From contig CAMUHY010000001.1 of NCBI GenBank assembly GCA_947088865.1, positions 372,001-436,000 on the forward strand: a DNA stretch of 64,000 nt, given 5' to 3'. Source of the stretch: an uncultured Eubacterium sp. (GTDB lineage: Bacteria; Bacillota; Clostridia; Lachnospirales; Lachnospiraceae). Below are positions 4,125 through 59,689 of this stretch, piece by piece. Every line of letters begins with the position of its first letter. The first letter of the stretch is position 1. The position numbers were made by a program, and so were the translations under genes. A model generated the notes under the pieces. It was not told the origin of the DNA. It saw nothing but the letters and a program-made list of their open reading frames with translations, and did no database searches.

Positions 4125-4481
4125 TTAAGCAACTTTTGACTTTGCAAGACTTGCAAGTTTAGCAAACCCTTCAGCATCGTGAATAGCCATCTCTGACAAT
4201 ACTTTTCTGTTCAAGTCTACATTTGCAAGTTTTAATCCATACATAAACTTGCTGTATGACAAACCATTCAATCTTGCAGCAGCATTGATTCTGGCAATCC
4301 ATAATCTTCTAAATTGTCTCTTTCTTTGCTTTCTGCCAGAATAAGACTCTGTGAGCGCTCTCATAACGGACTGTTTTGCAACTCTGTACTGCTTTGACCT
4401 TGCTCCTCTGTAACCTTTAGCGAGCTTTAATACTTTATTATGTTTTCTTCTTGCGTTTAAACCGCCTTTAATTCTTGCCAT
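4125..4481 (-). CDS. rplT: 50S ribosomal protein L20
   Basis: 118 residues starting [14 protein letters not shown], the usual L20 N-terminus and length. Basic motifs ([28 protein letters not shown]) are the rRNA-binding helices. L20 is needed early in 50S assembly and represses its own operon in other Firmicutes. An upstream in-frame ATG would add four residues, but GAGGG sits directly before the chosen ATG. Last gene of infC-rpmI-rplT. The 127-base gap before it holds a copy of the repeated 5'-UTR element and a separate palindrome. Confidence 0.98.
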
Positions 4482-4486
4482 TTTTT

Positions 4487-4550
4487 CCCTCATTTCTGCG
4501 CTGCTTTATGAGCATAACAAGTTTGTGTCAAGCAACGCGCAGACACAAAT
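4487..4550 (-). repeat. 5'-UTR repeat element A, copy 1 (upstream of rplT)
   Basis: Read on the minus strand: TTTGTGTC, a 12-base loop TGCGCGTTGCTT, then GACACAAA (8-bp stem). A 15-base linker follows, then AAGCAGCGCA, which is complementary to the loop, then GAAATGAGGG containing the Shine-Dalgarno site of rplT. This geometry allows a hairpin or pseudoknot ending four bases before the GAGG. Four other full copies exist in the window. Confidence 0.8.
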
Positions 4551-13780: not shown

Positions 13781-13827
13781 AGTTAAGCGGATATTCGCAA
13801 TCCGCTACGCTACTTGATGAGGTTAAA
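13781..13827 (+). repeat. Interspersed element B, short copy 1
   Basis: AGTTAAGCGGATATTCGCA is followed by ATCCGCTACGCTACTTGATG and AGGTTAAA. It contains the 7-bp stem AGCGGAT/ATCCGCT. Compared with the copy at 57891 it lacks the middle part, and the junction lies exactly between two CTTG tetramers, as expected of a deletion by short homology. Confidence 0.7.
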
Positions 13828-16729: not shown

Positions 16730-16769
16730 TAAGTATACAGTCATAAATAAAATATATCTCAAAATTTGT

Positions 16770-17195
16770 CTACTTTTCACCTAATTCCTTATACATCGTT
16801 CCTACATACTCTTCTAATTCACGATTATATTGATAACTTTTTGTATCATCATTATATACAATATGTGTATGTCCTCCTCCAAACCACATTTTCCAATCCA
16901 TATTATTTATTGTATATGAAATGCTATATGACCAGCCATCATACTGTTTTGGAAACAATACAAGCTTAAAATTAATTTCATCTATTTTATTAGCAAGTTT
17001 TTCTATATCTTCCTTTGCTATCAAAACACTTTCTCCTGTATTTCCACTCATAATACGTACTTCCTCTGCCTGCCGTATAGTTGCTTTAAAATTTTTTGCT
17101 CTACTTGAATAGATGTATATTATTATAATTAAAATAGTTAATATTACACTGAAAAATAATGTAATATGTATAATTGATTTTTTATATTTTTGCAT
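16770..17195 (-). CDS. Tandem membrane-anchored paralogue 1 (unknown function)
   Basis: 141 residues: one N-terminal membrane helix (about 8-28) then a roughly 110-residue outer domain. Conserved blocks across the three paralogues are EEVRIMSGNTGES, DIEKLANKIDEI, GWSYSISYTIN, MDWKMWFGGGHTHIV and EEYVGTMYKELG. It is nearly identical to paralogue 3 and more distant from paralogue 2. I know no named family. Upstream, GATTATACCAGATTAGAGG repeats the last codons of the protease gene at 18221, showing it arose by tandem duplication. Possible role: inhibitor or immunity partner of that protease (inference from context only). Confidence 0.75.
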   Translation of the reverse strand: MQKYKKSIIHITLFFSVILTILIIIIYIYSSRAKNFKATIRQAEEVRIMSGNTGESVLIAKEDIEKLANKIDEINFKLVLFPKQYDGWSYSISYTINNMDWKMWFGGGHTHIVYNDDTKSYQYNRELEEYVGTMYKELGEK

Positions 17196-17266
17196 AATAA
17201 CGCCTCTAATCTGGTATAATCACCATATAATTTTATCTTTTTGTATAATATTTAGAAATATCTTGT

Positions 17267-17716
17267 CTACTTTCCGCCTAATTCTTTATACATCGTTCCT
17301 ACATATTCTGCTAAATCACGATTATCCTGATAATATTTCCAATCACCATTATGTACAATTTGTGTGTACCCTCCGCTAAACCACATACTCCACCAGTCGT
17401 TTTCATCTACTCTATACAAAATTTCATATGACCAACCTCCACGCTGTTCTGAACGCGGTACACTCAATACATATTCAAAATGAATTTCATCTACCTTATC
17501 AGCCAATTTTTCTATATTTTCTGTTGATAATAAAATATATTCTCCTGTATTTCCGCTTACAATACGAACTTCATCCGCAATTCGTATATTAGACTTAAAA
17601 TTTTTTTCTCGGCTTGAATAACTATATAAATAATTATATTTCATTATAATAAATACACTTAATACAAAAAGAAGAAATACAAAAATAGTCATCATTAACT
17701 TTTTATGTTTTTTCAT
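17267..17716 (-). CDS. Tandem membrane-anchored paralogue 2 (unknown function)
   Basis: 149 residues from the ATG at 17716 (GAGG 8 bases upstream); a GTG three codons earlier overlaps the ribosome site and is rejected. It has the same architecture as its neighbours: basic tip, one membrane helix, outer domain with DEVRIVSGNTGEY, NIEKLADKVDEIHF, GGWSYEILYRVDENDW and AEYVGTMYKELGGK. It diverges from the other two in the middle (SVPRSEQRGG). Its 5' flank also carries GTTATACCAGATTAGAGG, the tail of the protease gene. Confidence 0.75.
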   Translation of the reverse strand: MKKHKKLMMTIFVFLLFVLSVFIIMKYNYLYSYSSREKNFKSNIRIADEVRIVSGNTGEYILLSTENIEKLADKVDEIHFEYVLSVPRSEQRGGWSYEILYRVDENDWWSMWFSGGYTQIVHNGDWKYYQDNRDLAEYVGTMYKELGGK

Positions 17717-17787
17717 AAGCTTCACCTCTAATCTGGTATAACTACTAGATAATCTTACCTTTTGTATAACATTTAGAAATATATTTT

Positions 17788-18210
17788 CTATTTTCCACCT
17801 AATTCCTTATACATCATTCCTATATATTCTTTCAATGCACGATTATATTGATAACTTTTTGTATCATCATTATATACAATATGTGTATATCCTCCAAACC
17901 ACATGCTCCAATCCATATCATTTATTGTATATGAAATACTATATGACCAACCTTCATACTGTTTTGGAAATAATACAAGCTTAAAATCCGTTTCTTCTAT
18001 TTTATTAGCAAGTTTTTCTATATCTTTCTTTGTTATCAAAATACTTTCTCCTGTATTGCCGCTCATAATTCGTACTTCTTCTGCCTGTCGTATAGTTGCC
18101 TTAAAATTCTTCGCTCTACTTGAATAGATACATATTATTACAATTAAAATAATTAGTATCGCAATTAAAAACAATACAATATGTATGATTGATTTTTTAT
18201 ATTTTTGCAT
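17788..18210 (-). CDS. Tandem membrane-anchored paralogue 3 (unknown function)
   Basis: 140 residues from MQKYKKSIIHIVLF. The frame is open a further 31 codons into the protease gene, but GAGGTGTGATTATG fixes the start here, 10 bases after the protease stop codon. It has one membrane helix and the outer domain EEVRIMSGNTGESI, DIEKLANKIEET, GWSYSISYTINDMDW and YIGMMYKELGGK. It is the paralogue directly coupled to the protease and probably the founder of the array. Confidence 0.78.
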   Translation of the reverse strand: MQKYKKSIIHIVLFLIAILIILIVIICIYSSRAKNFKATIRQAEEVRIMSGNTGESILITKKDIEKLANKIEETDFKLVLFPKQYEGWSYSISYTINDMDWSMWFGGYTHIVYNDDTKSYQYNRALKEYIGMMYKELGGK

Positions 18211-18220
18211 AATCACACCT

Positions 18221-19462
18221 CTAATCTGGTATAACCACTGTATAATCCCATGTTCCTGCACAATGTCCCCAAACATATCTTGAAGGATAATTTGTATCTC
18301 CATCTGCTATCCTGATATAAGTACTACAATATCCATTAGAATATGTAAACTGTGAATATCCTAATGCTAATACTCCATGATTACCATATCTTTTATGACC
18401 ATGTAAACTTAAATGACAAGGTCTATTATTATCCAACTCTTCGGCAACATGTATTCCATTATTTGTGCCATAGTATAAATATGCACTACAACTTAATCCC
18501 CTATCATAAAAATAAAGTCTATATGCATCTGCTATTTTATGATAATCTGTTCCTTCCTCATCTGTTTCCATATTATTGTGCATTTCCCAAAATACATCAT
18601 TCCATGAACAATTTAAAAATAAATCACCATATTTAGAAGGGTCTCTAAGATACCAATATTTACATAAATTCGTTGCGGCTGTTGGCGAACATACATTACC
18701 ATTACTAAAGTCATCCATAACATTATAATATATAAATCCACCATCAACCATATAATATTTACTATTTTGATATCCACTTTCATAATTATTAGGATTGGTT
18801 ATAAATTCTTCCTTATTATCTGGCGGATTGCTTCCTCTAGTACTCATATCCAGATACATCTCCCACATATCTGAATAATCCTGTTCCTGTGTTTCTTCCT
18901 CTTCTCGACAAACTTCTTCCATCTCAACAATATCACTTGTAGTTATATCATATATTTTAGAATCATTATTATCAACTTTACATTCCACAGCATAATTCAT
19001 ATCACCCATATAATATAACTTACAATTTTTACTGCTTAAGTCTGCCTGTTCCATATCATTGACTTTTTCTACTACATGCTCAATAGATACATTTAAAAAA
19101 GACTCGCCCTCCTCAGCAAATTCAATAATTGGATACATACTTGTATTTGCCCCTGTTATTACATAACCACAATCGTTATTATCCTTATCTTTTATACCAA
19201 AATAATAGCATTCTAACCGATTCTTATCATCAAATATTGCCTTTCTTACACCAATTTTTACACCTGTATTCCATAACGATTCTTCATTTGTACTCATTAC
19301 ATTTTTAATATGTGTAGTAGCTGCTTGTTCAGCTTCTTCTATTGAAATAATACGCACATTATTTCCTGTCGCCTCATCTTGTGCCGCAAAAACTGCACTC
19401 GAATTTACCAAAAACAAAACTACTGTCATTACACATGCTATTGTTCTTTTGATTTTTTTCAT
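18221..19462 (-). CDS. Secreted papain-like (C39/streptopain-type) cysteine peptidase, probable
   Basis: 413 residues from the ATG at 19462 (GGGGG 5 bases upstream). Signal peptide MKKIKRTIACVMTVVLFLVNSSAVFA. Residues about 30-200 look like a propeptide, including a PepSY-like Tyr/Gly-rich part. The C-terminal half carries GNVCSPTAATNLCKYW (nucleophile Cys), then HGVLALGY (His) and ADGD (possible Asp), the order of papain-like C39_2/C10 enzymes. Substrate unknown. It is followed at 10 bases by the first of three small membrane proteins. Streptopain-type proteases often travel with a dedicated inhibitor gene, which makes these neighbours candidates; this is inference. Confidence 0.7.
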   Translation of the reverse strand: MKKIKRTIACVMTVVLFLVNSSAVFAAQDEATGNNVRIISIEEAEQAATTHIKNVMSTNEESLWNTGVKIGVRKAIFDDKNRLECYYFGIKDKDNNDCGYVITGANTSMYPIIEFAEEGESFLNVSIEHVVEKVNDMEQADLSSKNCKLYYMGDMNYAVECKVDNNDSKIYDITTSDIVEMEEVCREEEETQEQDYSDMWEMYLDMSTRGSNPPDNKEEFITNPNNYESGYQNSKYYMVDGGFIYYNVMDDFSNGNVCSPTAATNLCKYWYLRDPSKYGDLFLNCSWNDVFWEMHNNMETDEEGTDYHKIADAYRLYFYDRGLSCSAYLYYGTNNGIHVAEELDNNRPCHLSLHGHKRYGNHGVLALGYSQFTYSNGYCSTYIRIADGDTNYPSRYVWGHCAGTWDYTVVIPD

Positions 19463-44382: not shown

Positions 44383-45444
44383 TTAATCCTCATTTATAAT
44401 CTCTTTGAGAGCCGCAAACAACTTATTCATCTGTTCGTCTGTTCCTATTGTTATACGAAGGTAATTATCAATCTTTGGCTTGTTAAAATACCGCACATAT
44501 ATATTTTTCTTTTTCAATTCTTCAAACAAAGCATCGGCATGAATTTTTTTATGCTGTGCAAAAATAAAATTTGTTTTTGAATCCAAAAATGTAAAACCTA
44601 ACGTTGTAAGCTCGCGCTTTGTTCGCTCACGTGTAGCGATAATCTTTTCAACACATTCCTTAAAATACTCTTCATCTTCAAGAACTGCTGAACCATAAAC
44701 CAATGATGTTACATTCATCGTATAAGAATTAATTGAAAATTTTACCGCCTGCATTGCCTGAATCAATCGTTCATTTCCAATCGCATAACCAATTCGCATA
44801 CCAGCCATTGAACGGGATTTTGAATAGGTTTGTACAACTAATAAATTTTCATATTTATCAATTAAAGATATAGCAGACTTTCCCCCAAAATCTATGTAGG
44901 CCTCATCGACAATAACAACGGATTTTTGATTATTTTTAACAATATTTTCTACTTCATCCAATTCCATATATAACGATGTAGGAGCATTTGGATTTGGAAA
45001 AATAACACCGCCATTTTCTCTGTAATAATCACTTGCAGTAATATGAAAATCCTTGTCCACAGGAATTTCACAGTATGGTATCTGATACATATTTGCCCAT
45101 ACAGGATAAAATGAATAGGATATATCAGGAAATAAAATAGGCTTATCCGAATTAAAAAAAGTTAAAAAACAAATTGAAAGAACATCATCGGAACCAACAC
45201 CTACAAAAACTTGATTGTCCGAAACCCCATAATACTTTGCCAATCCATGCACCAATTCAAAAGCATTTGGGTCTGGATAGAGCTTTAATCGGTCAAAATT
45301 AAAGTCTCTTGCCGCCAACTCGGCTTTTGGTGAAGGCGGATATGGATTTTCGTTAGTATTTAGCTTAATGACCCCCACTAATTTAGGCTGTTCTCCTGGT
45401 ATATATGGCTCTACGTTTCTTATATTTTTTTCCCATTCTCTCAT
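44383..45444 (-). CDS. hisC: Histidinol-phosphate aminotransferase
   Basis: 353 residues from MREWEKNIRNVEPYIPGEQP; the frame is open 14 codons upstream but GAGG lies 6 bases before this ATG. The class II PLP fold includes KLNTNENPYPPSP, VGVGSDDVLSICF, VDEAYIDFGG and the PLP Lys in QTYSKSRSMAGMRIGYAIG. It converts imidazole acetol phosphate to histidinol phosphate. No other his gene is adjacent. The 5'-UTR contains element A copy 2. Confidence 0.94.
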   Translation of the reverse strand: MREWEKNIRNVEPYIPGEQPKLVGVIKLNTNENPYPPSPKAELAARDFNFDRLKLYPDPNAFELVHGLAKYYGVSDNQVFVGVGSDDVLSICFLTFFNSDKPILFPDISYSFYPVWANMYQIPYCEIPVDKDFHITASDYYRENGGVIFPNPNAPTSLYMELDEVENIVKNNQKSVVIVDEAYIDFGGKSAISLIDKYENLLVVQTYSKSRSMAGMRIGYAIGNERLIQAMQAVKFSINSYTMNVTSLVYGSAVLEDEEYFKECVEKIIATRERTKRELTTLGFTFLDSKTNFIFAQHKKIHADALFEELKKKNIYVRYFNKPKIDNYLRITIGTDEQMNKLFAALKEIINED

Positions 45445-45450
45445 AAAAAT

Positions 45451-45539
45451 CCTCATTTCTGCGCTGCTTTCTTGCGCAAAAAACAAAATAAAACATTTTG
45501 TTTTTACAACTTTGTGTCAAGCAACGCGCAGACACAAAT
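45451..45539 (-). repeat. 5'-UTR repeat element A, copy 2 (upstream of hisC)
   Basis: Minus strand: TTTGTGTC, loop TGCGCGTTGCTT, GACACAAA, then an inserted hairpin AAACAAAAT/ATTTTATTTTGTTT, then AAAGCAGCGCAGAAATGAGG. Stem, loop and pairing segment are identical to copy 1, while the linker differs. Confidence 0.8.
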
Positions 45540-54206: not shown

Positions 54207-54800
54207 TTATGACTTTGAAAAAAGAATTTTATAGGACTTTCCCTCTTCAAACACTTCCTTTACTTTTGGAAATTTTCTTATCAAAAACTTTACTATGTAA
54301 TAGGATAAAACACCATATAAACTGCCAAGAATAAGGCTTACCAATACATCTGTTGGAAAATGAACCGTAAGATATAATCGAGACAACGATACCATCACAG
54401 CAATAACAATCATCGTTATTCCTTCTTTTTTATACCACATAAAACATGCCAGCGCCGCTGCAAAAGAAGCAGACGTATGTCCTGATGGAAACGACCAATC
54501 ATAAATGGTTGAAAAGATACCAAACAATTCTGTCTCTACCAGTGTTGGGTCTTGTATAAATGGTCGAACCCTATGAAATAAGTTTTTCATAACGCCATTG
54601 CACATAATCACAGACAACACAAGTGCAATGGTCATTGTAAGCGCAACTTTGCGATACTTTTTAGGAAGTATCGTAAATCCTAATAACGCTAAGATAATCC
54701 ATAATATTCCAGCTTCGCCAAGCATAGTAAATCCATACATAATTGGATTAAGCACTGCATTGTGCAGACTTGCAAACCAATGTAATATTGTAAATTCCAT
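54207..54800 (-). CDS. PAP2-family membrane phosphatase
   Basis: 197 residues from the ATG at 54800; two earlier in-frame ATGs overlap the GAGG site. Five to six helices. The acid phosphatase signature is split as usual: KNLFHRVRPF, then SFPSGHTSASF with catalytic His, then SRLYLTVHFPTDV. Probable substrate is undecaprenyl diphosphate or phosphatidylglycerol phosphate; sequence does not decide. Element A copy 4 forms its 5'-UTR, and rnhA ends directly at the repeat. Confidence 0.9.
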   Translation of the reverse strand: MEFTILHWFASLHNAVLNPIMYGFTMLGEAGILWIILALLGFTILPKKYRKVALTMTIALVLSVIMCNGVMKNLFHRVRPFIQDPTLVETELFGIFSTIYDWSFPSGHTSASFAAALACFMWYKKEGITMIVIAVMVSLSRLYLTVHFPTDVLVSLILGSLYGVLSYYIVKFLIRKFPKVKEVFEEGKSYKILFSKS

Positions 54801-54806
54801 TCTCAT

Positions 54807-54893
54807 CCTCATTTCTGCGCTGCTTTATTAACAAACAAAATTTTTCCAATTTTGTTTTTAAAACTTTGTGTCCAGCAACGCACAGACACAAAG
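54807..54893 (-). repeat. 5'-UTR repeat element A, copy 4 (upstream of the PAP2 gene)
   Basis: Minus strand: TTTGTGTC, loop TGTGCGTTGCTG, GACACAAA, then a linker hairpin ACAAAATT/AATTTTGTTT, then AAAGCAGCGCAGAAATGAGG. The linker hairpin resembles that of copy 2 but with a different loop. The copy begins one base after the rnhA stop. Confidence 0.8.
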
Positions 54894-55556: not shown

Positions 55557-55856
55557 TTACTTGCACAAGTCCTCTAATTGTCCTTTCTCGCGAAATCCAA
55601 CTTCTGTTGAAACGACCTGTCCATCTTTAATAAATACAATCGTTGGAACAAACTCAATATTATATTTTTGTGCAAGACTCATCTCATCATTGACATTTAT
55701 CTTTCCAACTTTAATCTCTGGATGTTCTTTTTCAAACTGTTCTAATACCGATGCAAACATTTTGCATGGCATACACCCTTCAGACCAAAAGTCCAATAAG
55801 ACAGGCTTATCACTTTTAGTTACTTCTTGTTCATAATTATTACTGGTAATATTCAT
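55557..55856 (-). CDS. Thioredoxin-like protein
   Basis: 99 residues, standard thioredoxin length. The active site is WSEGCMPCK (CMPC instead of CGPC), followed by the cis-Pro segment FVPTIVFIKDG. No signal peptide, so cytoplasmic. The CMPC variant should change redox potential compared with CGPC; that is inference. Ribosome site GAGG 5 bases before ATG lies in element A copy 5. Confidence 0.9.
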   Translation of the reverse strand: MNITSNNYEQEVTKSDKPVLLDFWSEGCMPCKMFASVLEQFEKEHPEIKVGKINVNDEMSLAQKYNIEFVPTIVFIKDGQVVSTEVGFREKGQLEDLCK

Positions 55857-55860
55857 TTTT

Positions 55861-55926
55861 TCCTCATTTCTGCGCTGCCTTTTTCATATAAATAGATTTG
55901 TGATAAGCAGCGCGCAGGCACAAATC
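55861..55926 (-). repeat. 5'-UTR repeat element A, copy 5 (upstream of the thioredoxin gene)
   Basis: Minus strand: GATTTGTG, loop containing CCTGCGCGCTGCTTAT, CACAAATC, short linker, then AGGCAGCGCAGAAATGAGG. The stem is GATTTGTG/CACAAATC, shifted by two bases from that of copies 1 and 2, but again perfect. Confidence 0.75.
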
Positions 55927-56015: not shown

Positions 56016-56036
56016 CAAAAATCATATTTTTACACA
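56016..56036. repeat. Left 21-bp direct repeat flanking the ATPase module
   Basis: CAAAAATCATATTTTT followed by ACACA, identical over 21 bases to the copy at 57995-58015. No similarity continues on either side. Confidence 0.8.
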
Positions 56037-56093
56037 GAACGCTTTTTATTCTGCTAATATCAATCTATAATTATAAATATGTTTTTATAGCAT

Positions 56094-56618
56094 TTATTTT
56101 AACAAGTCCCATATAGACATTTCATCTTTAAAACTTTTTGATTTGCTATGATATGTCGCCAATACATTTATTAAATTCTGTATATCTGAAAAATACTTTT
56201 TTACAAATTCATAGCTCTTGACATCTTTATATTTTAGTTTTGTTTTGCAATAAATGCTAGGCTTTAAATCGTGATTTTTTCGTTCTTCATTTTTATATTC
56301 TTTATACTTATTTTCATTATGAATAATAAGCATCTCAATTTCTGGAGCAGTAATTACATTCTTAACATCGACTTGATTAGCATATGCTTTGCTTAAATTA
56401 AATTTTTCACTGCGCGAATCTAAAACTCTATAAATTGTAATTTTTTCTTCATAGCTTTTTCTTAAATACTTATTTTCAAATTCTTTTGCACTTCTGCATC
56501 TTAATACTTCTTCCTCAATCAAATCTTCACGTTCAAATTTTAATTGATGATTATCAAGCAATAAATCCAATATAGCCCTTTCAGCACCGCCCTCACAAAT
56601 ACATGCGATATATTTCAT
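56094..56618 (-). CDS. RloB/TOPRIM-like small protein, partner of the upstream ATPase
   Basis: 174 residues. It starts MKYIACICEGGAERAILDLL, with a Glu after the first strand as in TOPRIM domains. A second strand ends in IYRVLDSRSEKF, where an acidic metal site would lie, followed by APEIEMLIIHNENKY, resembling the FE-x-WLLLHF segment of RloB-type proteins. The rest is Lys-rich helix. It starts 13 bases after the ATPase gene, so they form one transcript. Likely role: nuclease or effector triggered by the ATPase, as in RloAB/AbiL/PARIS-like pairs. Family assignment is by motif only. Confidence 0.6.
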   Translation of the reverse strand: MKYIACICEGGAERAILDLLLDNHQLKFEREDLIEEEVLRCRSAKEFENKYLRKSYEEKITIYRVLDSRSEKFNLSKAYANQVDVKNVITAPEIEMLIIHNENKYKEYKNEERKNHDLKPSIYCKTKLKYKDVKSYEFVKKYFSDIQNLINVLATYHSKSKSFKDEMSIWDLLK

Positions 56619-56631
56619 ATAAAAGTCTCCC

Positions 56632-57789
56632 TTACTCTACTCTCATTAGAACCTTTTTTAATGCCATATATGCCTCATATACAGGAACAGTGCCTCCTAG
56701 ATAATTACTATCATAGGCTTCACTCTTTTTAATATCATTTCTACTTAAAATAGTGGACAAATTTTTTGCAGTAATCCCACTTTTATTTCTAACAATATAA
56801 ATACTATCATTTCTGTCAAACTCGTCTAACAATTCTGAATAATGTGTTGAAAATAGAAGTGTTGCTCCATTTTTATTTACTTTTGAATCCATAAAAAACC
56901 GAATTAACGTAGCAACAATTTCTCTATTAAAATGATTTTCTATCTCATCAACAATTAAATATCCTCCTTCAATAAATGCAACCCAAGCACTCATAAATAT
57001 GCCTAGTCCCTTTATTGTTCCTGATGAAAGATAATTTGCAAGCATATGCGGGCTATTGATAATCACTTCTTTTTTTCCATAAAATTTCAGCCGAATATCA
57101 AACTTTTTCTTTTCCATATGACATTGTAGATATTCTATACTAGGGTCTAAAAAGATTAAAAGTTCTTTTGGAAACTGTCCTAAAACATTTATCATATTGT
57201 GGTCTGTCCATTCTAACATATCCTTGACAAAAAAAGACTTCTTATTTTTTTTATTGATAGCGATTATAATACTAATATCATTCATTAAATATTGTTCATC
57301 TTGATTTCTTTTTTGTTTTAAATCCGAACCTTTAAAGTCAAATATACTCTTTTTTGTTTTTATTCTACTACTTTCTTTTGACCATAAACTTTCATCTACA
57401 ATAATAAATTTCTCACTGTTATCTACAATATTTATTTCCTTTGCAATAACCGTCTGTAATTTATTTACAAAACCATTGTCATAAAAATACGATGTAACAG
57501 TTACTTTCTGATTATTTTCTAAATCATTTAAAACTTCTTTTGATTGACTATTATTTATTGATTCATTTTTTAACATATTCATAACAAATGAAAGTACTTT
57601 TAATATGGTGGTCTTTCCTGAAGCATTAATACCAACAAATGCTATAACTTGATTGATATAAATCTTTGAAAAAACATTATAGAGTTGTTCTTTATCATCT
57701 TCACCAACTCTTTGCCTTGCTATAAAATCGATATCAAATATACCATCAAAATGTGGTAACCCTTCCACAGTTAATTTTAAAAGTTTCAT
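56632..57789 (-). CDS. AAA_15/21-type ATPase, candidate anti-phage module component
   Basis: 385 residues. SMC/ABC-like ATPase of the OLD/RloA type: Walker A GINASGKTT (residues 53-61), a middle helical insertion, the signature-like SSGTIKGLGIF, Walker B YLIVDEIENHF and the switch His in LLFSTHYSELL. The N-terminus (MKLLKLTVEGLPHFDGIFDI) is the first strand of such ATPases. No membrane segment. With the small RloB/TOPRIM-like gene downstream it makes a two-gene operon like abortive-infection systems. The pair lies between 21-bp direct repeats with an element B copy. Confidence 0.8.
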   Translation of the reverse strand: MKLLKLTVEGLPHFDGIFDIDFIARQRVGEDDKEQLYNVFSKIYINQVIAFVGINASGKTTILKVLSFVMNMLKNESINNSQSKEVLNDLENNQKVTVTSYFYDNGFVNKLQTVIAKEINIVDNSEKFIIVDESLWSKESSRIKTKKSIFDFKGSDLKQKRNQDEQYLMNDISIIIAINKKNKKSFFVKDMLEWTDHNMINVLGQFPKELLIFLDPSIEYLQCHMEKKKFDIRLKFYGKKEVIINSPHMLANYLSSGTIKGLGIFMSAWVAFIEGGYLIVDEIENHFNREIVATLIRFFMDSKVNKNGATLLFSTHYSELLDEFDRNDSIYIVRNKSGITAKNLSTILSRNDIKKSEAYDSNYLGGTVPVYEAYMALKKVLMRVE

Positions 57790-57890
57790 ATCAGCCTCCC
57801 TATTGTAACTTATTTTATAATTAATGTTTTTATAATTAAATTATACCCAATTAAAAGGATAAATCAACATTTATTTACGTGATATACGTT

Positions 57891-57992
57891 TTTAACCTCA
57901 TCAAGGGAGTATAAGCTCCCACTGAAAAGCTACGATAATAGCTATGAGATTATGAGCAAGTAGCGTAGCGGATTGCAAATATCCGCTTAACT
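57891..57992 (-). repeat. Interspersed element B, long copy 3
   Basis: Minus strand: AGTTAAGCGGATATTTGCA, ATCCGCTACGCTACTTGCTC, ATAATCTCATAGCTATTATC, GTAGCTTTTCAGTGGGAGCT, TATACTCCCTTGATGAGG, TTAAA. Three hairpins are possible: AGCGGAT/ATCCGCT, AGCTA/TAGCT and GGGAG/CTCCC. This is the fullest copy and serves here as the reference. Confidence 0.75.
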
Positions 57993-57994
57993 CT

Positions 57995-58015
57995 CAAAAA
58001 TCATATTTTTACACA
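57995..58015. repeat. Right 21-bp direct repeat, covering the protease stop codon
   Basis: Identical to 56016-56036. It includes the TGA (58003-58001) and last codons of the Csp-like protease, so the module between the repeats sits at the 3' end of that gene, as integrated elements often do. Confidence 0.8.
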
Positions 58016-59689
58016 CAATGTCCCCCACCCTGTAAGCGGATTGTGACCATTGCCAAAACCTGGAAGCTGCTTTGCACTGTTGATAAGATACGCTTTTACC
58101 TTCTGCCCCCAAAGATAATCGTCATTTCCTTTTACAATGCCCCACTCCATCAAAAGCGCTGCTGCTCCTGTGGCAAATGGCGTCGCAAACGATGTTCCTG
58201 TCGCATAAGTACCTGCGCCTAGATTAACCTCCACACCTGGAGCTACAATATCTGGTTTAAAAAATGATGTGCTGCCCTGCATCCCTTCCCAGCCTCTGCC
58301 TGAAAAAGGCGCATAGGAATACCGATAAGAATCATATGCACCTACCGTTATCGCATTGGACACAGTAGATGGTATAGTAAACGTTGCATAACTGTCTGGT
58401 ATAATAAATCCTGTTCCTGAATTAACCACATTTTCATTGGTTAGCCAAATATTATAATACCCATTAATCAGCCGAAACGGAATCAGCCGCAATTTCCAAA
58501 TACCTGTTGTAATATAGCCATTCTCCGACAAGATATTAATATAAATTTCTTGCTTCATGCTATATGGCGAAGGTTCTCCATAGTACGACAAAACTAAATT
58601 ATTGTTAATCTGCATTCGATTGATACGGCTAAATCCGCTGATTCTGCCTAAGTTTTGTCCTGTTGGTGCAATGATTTCAACCTGAAAATCCTCCCAATAA
58701 TCTTTCCATATCTGTATTCCCACCGATGTCTCATAATTGCCAACAGCTAATTCTACCAACTCTTCTTTGCCATTTTGCAGAATGCCTGCATGATGGATAA
58801 TTCCTAATCCCTCATTTCCACTGCCAATACAAATACAGCACTTCCACATATCACACACCGAATTAATATACGTTTCAAGAATGGAATCTCCCCTATGCGA
58901 ACCATAGTTATTGCCAAAACTAATATTGATTGCAATAGGCATATTCAGTGCGCCTGCTTGCCTGATACAATAATCAATTGCTCTCATCAACTGTGTTGTT
59001 CGCGGAAAGGAATGAATCGCTTGACTATCATTTAATTTCGTGTTATTTCCCATTTTTACAACAATGATAGAAGCATTTGGCGCAACGCCTGAATTACCGC
59101 AGGCAATTGCCGCTACCTGTGTTCCATGTCCCACAAAGTCCATATTGGCAGTTCCTTGTTCTATCATACGATTAATATCGTCACTTGTGTAATACTCATC
59201 TTTATCTTGGTCCCATGCTGATATAATCCTCGTTTTTCCCTGTGCATCAAGAAATTCACTGTTTGCCGCATCAATACCTGTGTCAATAACTGCAACAATC
59301 GTACCTGTGCCATATAACTTATTGGGATTATCAAATCCTTGCTGTAAAGCAGAGATACAGCTAGCGCTTTTTTCTTCCTGAATCTCAAATTGAATTAATT
59401 TCGGTTTTTCAATAAATTCAATATATTTTTTGTTAGCAATTTCATTGATGTACGATTTTGGTGTAATTAAAACAGCATACTGTCCCAACAATTCATATAC
59501 TTGTATATTCGGAAATGATGTGGTGATATCCGAGTAAAAATCTCCTGATAACGAACTATATTTTACAATTATTTCCCATAATTCACCTGACGGACTTACA
59601 CCAACTTCCAAATCTGGTGAGCTTCTCCTTTCACTGTCTGTAACATTCATACTTACTGTTAAAAGCTGTTCGATTTTTTGATTATTCAT
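58001..59689 (-). CDS. Subtilisin-family (S8) protease, Csp-like
   Basis: 562 residues, no signal peptide. Catalytic triad appears complete: Asp136 in VAVIDTGID, His188 in DFVGHGTQVA, Ser500 in ATGTSFATP. A roughly 110-residue N-terminal part resembles a propeptide, and a jellyroll-like insertion lies at about 310-430. Length and layout match clostridial CspB/CspA-like germination proteases; members of this group also occur in many Lachnospiraceae with unknown roles. GGGGAG lies 2 bases before ATG. Its stop codon is inside the right direct repeat of the ATPase module. Confidence 0.88.
   Translation of the reverse strand: MNNQKIEQLLTVSMNVTDSERRSSPDLEVGVSPSGELWEIIVKYSSLSGDFYSDITTSFPNIQVYELLGQYAVLITPKSYINEIANKKYIEFIEKPKLIQFEIQEEKSASCISALQQGFDNPNKLYGTGTIVAVIDTGIDAANSEFLDAQGKTRIISAWDQDKDEYYTSDDINRMIEQGTANMDFVGHGTQVAAIACGNSGVAPNASIIVVKMGNNTKLNDSQAIHSFPRTTQLMRAIDYCIRQAGALNMPIAINISFGNNYGSHRGDSILETYINSVCDMWKCCICIGSGNEGLGIIHHAGILQNGKEELVELAVGNYETSVGIQIWKDYWEDFQVEIIAPTGQNLGRISGFSRINRMQINNNLVLSYYGEPSPYSMKQEIYINILSENGYITTGIWKLRLIPFRLINGYYNIWLTNENVVNSGTGFIIPDSYATFTIPSTVSNAITVGAYDSYRYSYAPFSGRGWEGMQGSTSFFKPDIVAPGVEVNLGAGTYATGTSFATPFATGAAALLMEWGIVKGNDDYLWGQKVKAYLINSAKQLPGFGNGHNPLTGWGTLCVKI

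Follow-up and report, generated by a model that had tools for sequence, protein, structure and literature searches.

A two-gene ATPase and TOPRIM-like module between 21-bp direct repeats at the end of a Csp-like protease gene: a candidate phage-defence operon in an uncultured Eubacterium sp.

Layout of the inserted segment

A contig of an uncultured Eubacterium sp., a gut-type bacterium (Lachnospiraceae; CAMUHY010000001.1, positions 372,001 to 436,000; 64,000 nucleotides, here called the window) carries a two-gene module between the genes for a Csp-like protease and a thioredoxin. The module encodes an ATPase and a small partner protein, lies between exact 21-bp direct repeats and is an insertion relative to the kin of this bacterium. 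The features of the locus, by position in the window, are as follows.

55557..55856, minus strand: thioredoxin gene, the next host gene (Pfam)
56016..56036, no strand: left 21-bp direct repeat (sequence reading; window and genome search)
56094..57789, minus strand: gene pair, ATPase and partner (open reading frame list)
56094..56618, minus strand: partner, 174 amino acids, compact, TOPRIM-like, proposed effector (profile searches, predicted fold)
56632..57789, minus strand: ATPase of Rad50/PtuA type, AbiLi-like, 385 amino acids (Pfam, PADLOC, predicted fold)
57810..57832, minus strand: putative place of operator 2, a weak match 62 bp from operator 1 (from the sequence and the spacing in relatives)
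57840..57867, minus strand: promoter-like site TTGATT-16-TATAAT (consensus match; 22 found in the region against 15.8 expected)
57872..57894, minus strand: operator 1, palindrome TAAAAACG-N7-CGTTTTTA, 13 of 16 positions (motif scan)
about 57890..57992, minus strand: copy of element B, a palindromic intergenic repeat in the inserted segment (ends taken from alignment)
57995..58015, no strand: right 21-bp direct repeat, including the Csp stop codon (sequence reading; window and genome search)
58001..59689, minus strand: Csp-like subtilase (CspB prodomain and Peptidase_S8), host gene with the insertion at its 3' end (Pfam)

The 21-mer CAAAAATCATATTTTTACACA occurs exactly at 56016-56036 and 57995-58015, 1979 bp apart. 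It has no further copy, whether in the window with 3 mismatches allowed (shuffle mean 0.02) or in the 3.29-Mb genome with 2 allowed, which confirms the exact bracketing repeats described in an earlier, sequence-only reading of this DNA. Similarity continues to 27 bp with 2 mismatches. In our sorting of the 15 exact repeat pairs of at least 18 bp in the window, every pair except the 21-mer fell under a dispersed repeat or a tandem array. The right copy of the 21-mer spans the stop codon of the protease gene (58001-58003), again as first read, and its left copy starts about 60 bp downstream of the partner gene stop. The repeat contains no terminator-like hairpin, the viral contigs searched hold no copy of it, and no terminal inverted repeats of the inserted segment were found.

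Read along the genes, the right repeat is followed after 2 bp by element B (about 103 bp); then come operator 1, the promoter and the genes for ATPase and partner, and a stretch of 60 bp leads to the left repeat. Since element B, which adjoins the module promoter, lies between the repeats, the inserted segment comprises more than the gene pair. A 22-base core of this element matches the genome 137 times with at most 2 mismatches (reversed pattern, 0), and 30 aligned copies begin AGTT/AGTC-AAGCGG, with no clear conservation upstream of this start. Element B is roughly 100-150 bp long, with some copies shortened internally, and is found in the window at 13785, 22306 (diverged), 38971, 57988 (minus strand) and 61399 as well as genome-wide; none of the window copies matched Rfam. 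No recombinase gene was present among the reading frames between the repeats, nor did Pfam detect an integrase or transposase in 13 scanned open reading frames of the 21 (at least 80 amino acids) at 49.5-63.9 kb. This bears out the absence of an integrase noted earlier.

The module was found in 0 of 20 Csp loci of relatives (17 from the same genus, 3 from other genera), with neither gene present there, and Csp, thioredoxin and RNase H genes were found in none of 20 module loci, some of the compared loci being on short contigs. The sequence-only proposal that a small segment entered at the 3' end of this protease gene is thus supported, and the module is not a constant resident of this locus. 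Genome G004 lacks it and retains the order dockerin, cohesin, Csp, thioredoxin, RNase H; G016 also lacks it and retains dockerin, cohesin, Csp, RNase H, PAP2, ArsP-like, DUF4867, fucose isomerase and kinase genes. Because the Csp proteins of these two genomes are just 43-53% identical to that of the window, the old junction is unreadable: the best matches to the 21-mer at their syntenic empty junctions have 9 and 6 mismatches and are too diverged. The host gene had been described as left intact, and this is less clear. The window protease, whose CspBA profile match is below the cut-off of the profile, ends in LCVKI*, 2 residues after the conserved L-C-V/L, while relatives carry at least 5 residues there (18 of 18 comparable sequences, 21 listed). 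Identical codons stand in the left repeat, so that the short tail was either older than the insertion or arrived with it.

The module proteins, their operators and their distribution

The assignment of the ATPase to the SMC/Rad50 type is supported by Pfam (AAA_21, 2.8e-13), by PADLOC and by the predicted fold, which is Rad50/PtuA-like. By profile the protein is AbiLi-like: the AbiLi match (1.8e-31, profile positions 49-280 of 326) is the top one among 28 PADLOC matches, and AriA also matches (3.1e-13). A PDB sequence search returned nothing at 0.001.

The partner matches no family in Pfam, NCBIfam, PADLOC or PHROGs, and the best PDB sequence match has an E-value of 0.79. Its predicted fold weakly resembles the TOPRIM domains of OLD proteins (Foldseek without a match at E ≤0.001), and conserved acidic residues give a further weak TOPRIM indication. 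Of the reduced TOPRIM or RloB protein suggested earlier, the TOPRIM half therefore stands weakly; between it and a fold unrelated to TOPRIM, the balance tilts towards the first reading. The RloB half is not supported. Neither Pfam nor PADLOC found RloB/AbiLii in 16 partner members, and hhalign against 13 RloB proteins gave probabilities of 2.7% and 2.3%. The top RloB profile-profile score (21.1) exceeded the best of 30 column-shuffled controls (18.4) and was not counted, as its 20 columns miss the acidic motif and its probability is 2.3%; in a second match (score 18.5) the EG motifs are in register. Among the same 16 members there was no match to AriB models (PADLOC at E 1; Pfam) or to HNH families (E 1). 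Elsewhere in the genome, RloB-family matches occur at G000:C1:449464-450132, C36:4550-5086 and C44:1291-1836, one of them with an internal TGA.

The 23-bp palindrome TAAAAACG-N7-CGTTTTTA recurs upstream of the module in other genomes. In 15 of 24 module promoters it beat shuffles at ≤0.02, and 11 of the 24 have two matches (at least 12 of 16 positions) spaced 61-64 bp, one at the -35 region or slightly upstream of it and the other near the ribosome-binding site. At 13 or more positions it was found at 57 places in 967 kb of loci, about 40 of them in module promoters (our own count, with two contigs counted twice), compared with 4-22 places (mean 13.9) for 20 permuted palindromes. As the operator accompanies the module, control by the module's own products is indicated, which suggests self-repression.

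The partner was detected in 26 of 299 genomes of the taxonomic family with a single-sequence query, in 36 of 397 with an alignment query and in 19 of 392 genomes of the order (3 of the 19 outside the family); these samples overlap, and many matches are fragments. At least part of the partner adjoins the ATPase in 43 of 44 loci, most of which were located via the partner. Of 13 viral loci located via the ATPase, 11 were examined: 10 have the partner and 1 is cut off. Sequence identity to the window proteins falls to 28-30% in the most distant clade of the alignments. A phage search with the partner gave no match; a plasmid search gave 3 records at 29-43% identity.

Four ATPase genes (G324, G364, G376 and G213) share 96.7-99.0% DNA identity and their flanks, and a phage-integrase gene lies in the flank of the G324 copy. 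Resemblance between the G222 copy (91%) and that of G324 begins 126 bp ahead of the ATPase and stops about 100 bp past the partner, so the shared unit can be very compact. A terminase gene is found downstream of one module (L174), and another module (L178) comes after tail-fibre and endolysin genes; further neighbours are a ResIII/DUF3427 helicase, a UvrD-like protein and DUF2290. The family is patchy, and some of its copies sit in prophages or next to an integrase gene.

Proposed phage defence and the toxin-antitoxin alternative

Several known systems are built alike. AbiL (AbiLi and AbiLii, from a Lactococcus lactis plasmid) likewise has two genes with an ABC-type ATPase first and a TOPRIM-related partner, though the partner described here has no RloB/AbiLii match and no profile-profile similarity to the 13 RloB proteins. 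PARIS (AriA and AriB), in which a ring of AriA sequesters the effector, also places ATPase and TOPRIM effector on separate genes, but the 174-residue partner fits no AriB model in PADLOC or Pfam. In OLD nucleases and Gabija GajA, ATPase and TOPRIM are fused in one protein, whereas the module is smaller and has two reading frames. Septu (PtuA and PtuB) differs in its partner, PtuB being an HNH protein. As reported in PMC10440598, PMC12409363 and PMC10568477 taken jointly, AbiL acts by abortive infection and the PARIS effector AriB cuts tRNA.

The pair of ATPase and compact nuclease-like protein is probably phage-protective, a role that we infer from kinship and neighbourhood only. The analogy to AbiL and PARIS, together with the prophage and defence-gene neighbourhoods, keeps the abortive-infection function proposed by the sequence-only reading plausible. 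Our preferred reading, whose chances we judge to be evenly balanced, is that a self-contained phage-defence operon was horizontally acquired between the Csp-like protease and thioredoxin genes, acting by AbiL/PARIS-like abortive infection through a compact TOPRIM-like effector and carrying no recombinase of its own.

In the proposed mechanism the Rad50/PtuA-type ATPase would keep its small TOPRIM-like partner inactive and sense infection. Once triggered, the partner would cut nucleic acid (tRNA like AriB, or DNA), and growth would be halted ahead of phage release. The operators would hold expression low via the module's own products.

Paired operators around a promoter are usual in toxin-antitoxin operons, and their presence here would also suit a selfish pair in which the partner is the toxin and the ATPase the antitoxin, maintained by addiction without a defence role. 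Pairs of AAA and TOPRIM proteins are treated as candidate toxin-antitoxin systems in PMC10440598. The occurrence of modules in prophages and beside restriction or helicase genes and the many degraded copies speak against pure addiction, which we regard as unlikely. The toxin-antitoxin and defence readings overlap, because abortive infection can work by a toxin-antitoxin pair.

Direct repeats across the family and the route of arrival

Direct repeats were scored around modules of the family. Of 56 loci, 9 lacked an ATPase match and one (L167) had a short flank; 46 were scored, and dropping the duplicate contigs L179 and L181 left 44. These are partly non-independent (L066, L075, L078, L144 and L145 belong to a single lineage; L182 and L183 are 97% similar), and where a copy is truncated (L075, L076, L140 and others), its flanks were placed by extrapolation. 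Scores of at least 40 were obtained at 5 of the 44 loci: the window (44), L063, L067, L149 and L114. The L114 repeat is dispersed in its contig and was not counted. A unique close direct repeat thus marks 4 of 44 modules and 0 of 1500 control segments (random, 1.7 kb each, from 669 kb comprising the window and fetched loci), whereas 39 of 44 have no comparable pair within 600 bp; pairs beyond this distance (L066, L153, L168, L185) were excluded.

The four pairs measure 21, 37/38, 51 and 55 bp and differ in sequence and origin. The G317 copy is enclosed by an exact 55-bp pair with 2 copies in that genome, the only one of its genus in the sample, so that there is no empty site to compare. In G336 the pair is a hairpin whose 15-bp arms are identical but whose loops differ; 3 of 40 genomes of its genus, including G336, have matches, and none offers an empty junction. 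In the G195 pair (51 bp, 96%), part of the adjacent Nudix gene recurs as a copy on the other side of the module. Past this fragment (L149, G195:C93) lies the apparent interior of an ABC-F-like gene, as if cut by insertion; with a contig of just 3.5 kb, misassembly is possible.

These differences, with 39 of 44 modules lacking a pair, do not fit a single integrase or transposase. The pattern fits recombination at local repeats or several unrelated routes. Duplication of a target or att core, as first proposed, goes beyond the evidence, there being no relative with a single-copy junction. Improbable in our view is a site-specific cassette, in which an integrase acting in trans would recognize the Csp gene end and the 21-bp repeats would be attL/attR cores of a non-autonomous element: the exact, unique repeats, one at a stop codon, and the 55-bp G317 pair would suit it, but the missing or dissimilar pairs, the shortened Csp tail and the lack of an integrase in the 13 scanned frames do not. 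We give similarly poor prospects to a different entry event followed by copying of the 21-mer across the module, e.g. by template switching. Element B only 2 bp from the right repeat inside the segment, the lack of terminal inverted repeats and the copied Nudix piece favor such a course, yet close pairs in 4 of 44 modules versus 0 of 1500 controls associate repeats and module. A transposase-type cassette that duplicates a target of constant length was rejected, given the four different lengths and the absence of terminal inverted repeats.

Under the preferred reading of an acquired defence operon, integration would have left the 21-bp repeats without a recombinase encoded at the locus; the likeliest, though unproven, route would be that short intergenic repeats recombined or served for template switching, or that a larger element was trimmed down.

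Other repeats were seen near modules. In L068 (G071) the module lies between the arms of a 45-bp inverted repeat, one about 131-176 bp ahead of the ATPase and the other directly behind the partner (score 47; 0 of 1500 controls reached 40). A more distant 50-bp pair (90%) in G578 corresponds to the terminator of a secreted-protein gene that occurs repeatedly. Loci of that genus (L168, L215, L216, L217) show this gene repeated with similar terminators and varied cargo between copies: the module in G808, a HigA-like gene pair in G770 and other genes in G796. The window itself also holds a second dispersed intergenic repeat (TCCTCATTTCTGCGCTGCTTT ... AGCAACGCGCAGACACAAAT; 4476-4550, 45439-45539, 54795-54893, 55850-55925), a tandem array (16766-18256) whose three diverged copies are spaced by about 500 bp and a tetrahydrofolate (THF) riboswitch (RF01831, 41634-41730, minus strand, 86.3 bits, Rfam).

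What is new here lies chiefly in the gene family and its operators and less in the repeats. A broader view, which we put forward with considerable doubt, is that of a widespread two-gene immune family, unnamed in Pfam, NCBIfam, PADLOC and PHROGs, combining a Rad50/PtuA-type ATPase and a tiny, stand-alone TOPRIM-like effector, repressed through twin operators that its own products bind, and inserted as a recombinase-free cassette at gene ends, terminators and palindromic repeats. ATPase and TOPRIM pairs recur in phage defence, and a 174-residue effector unnamed in the searched libraries would widen this design and offer an enzyme suited to biochemistry. The conserved operators provide a testable link of sensing to expression, and a defence cassette without a visible mobile element bears on how such genes move.
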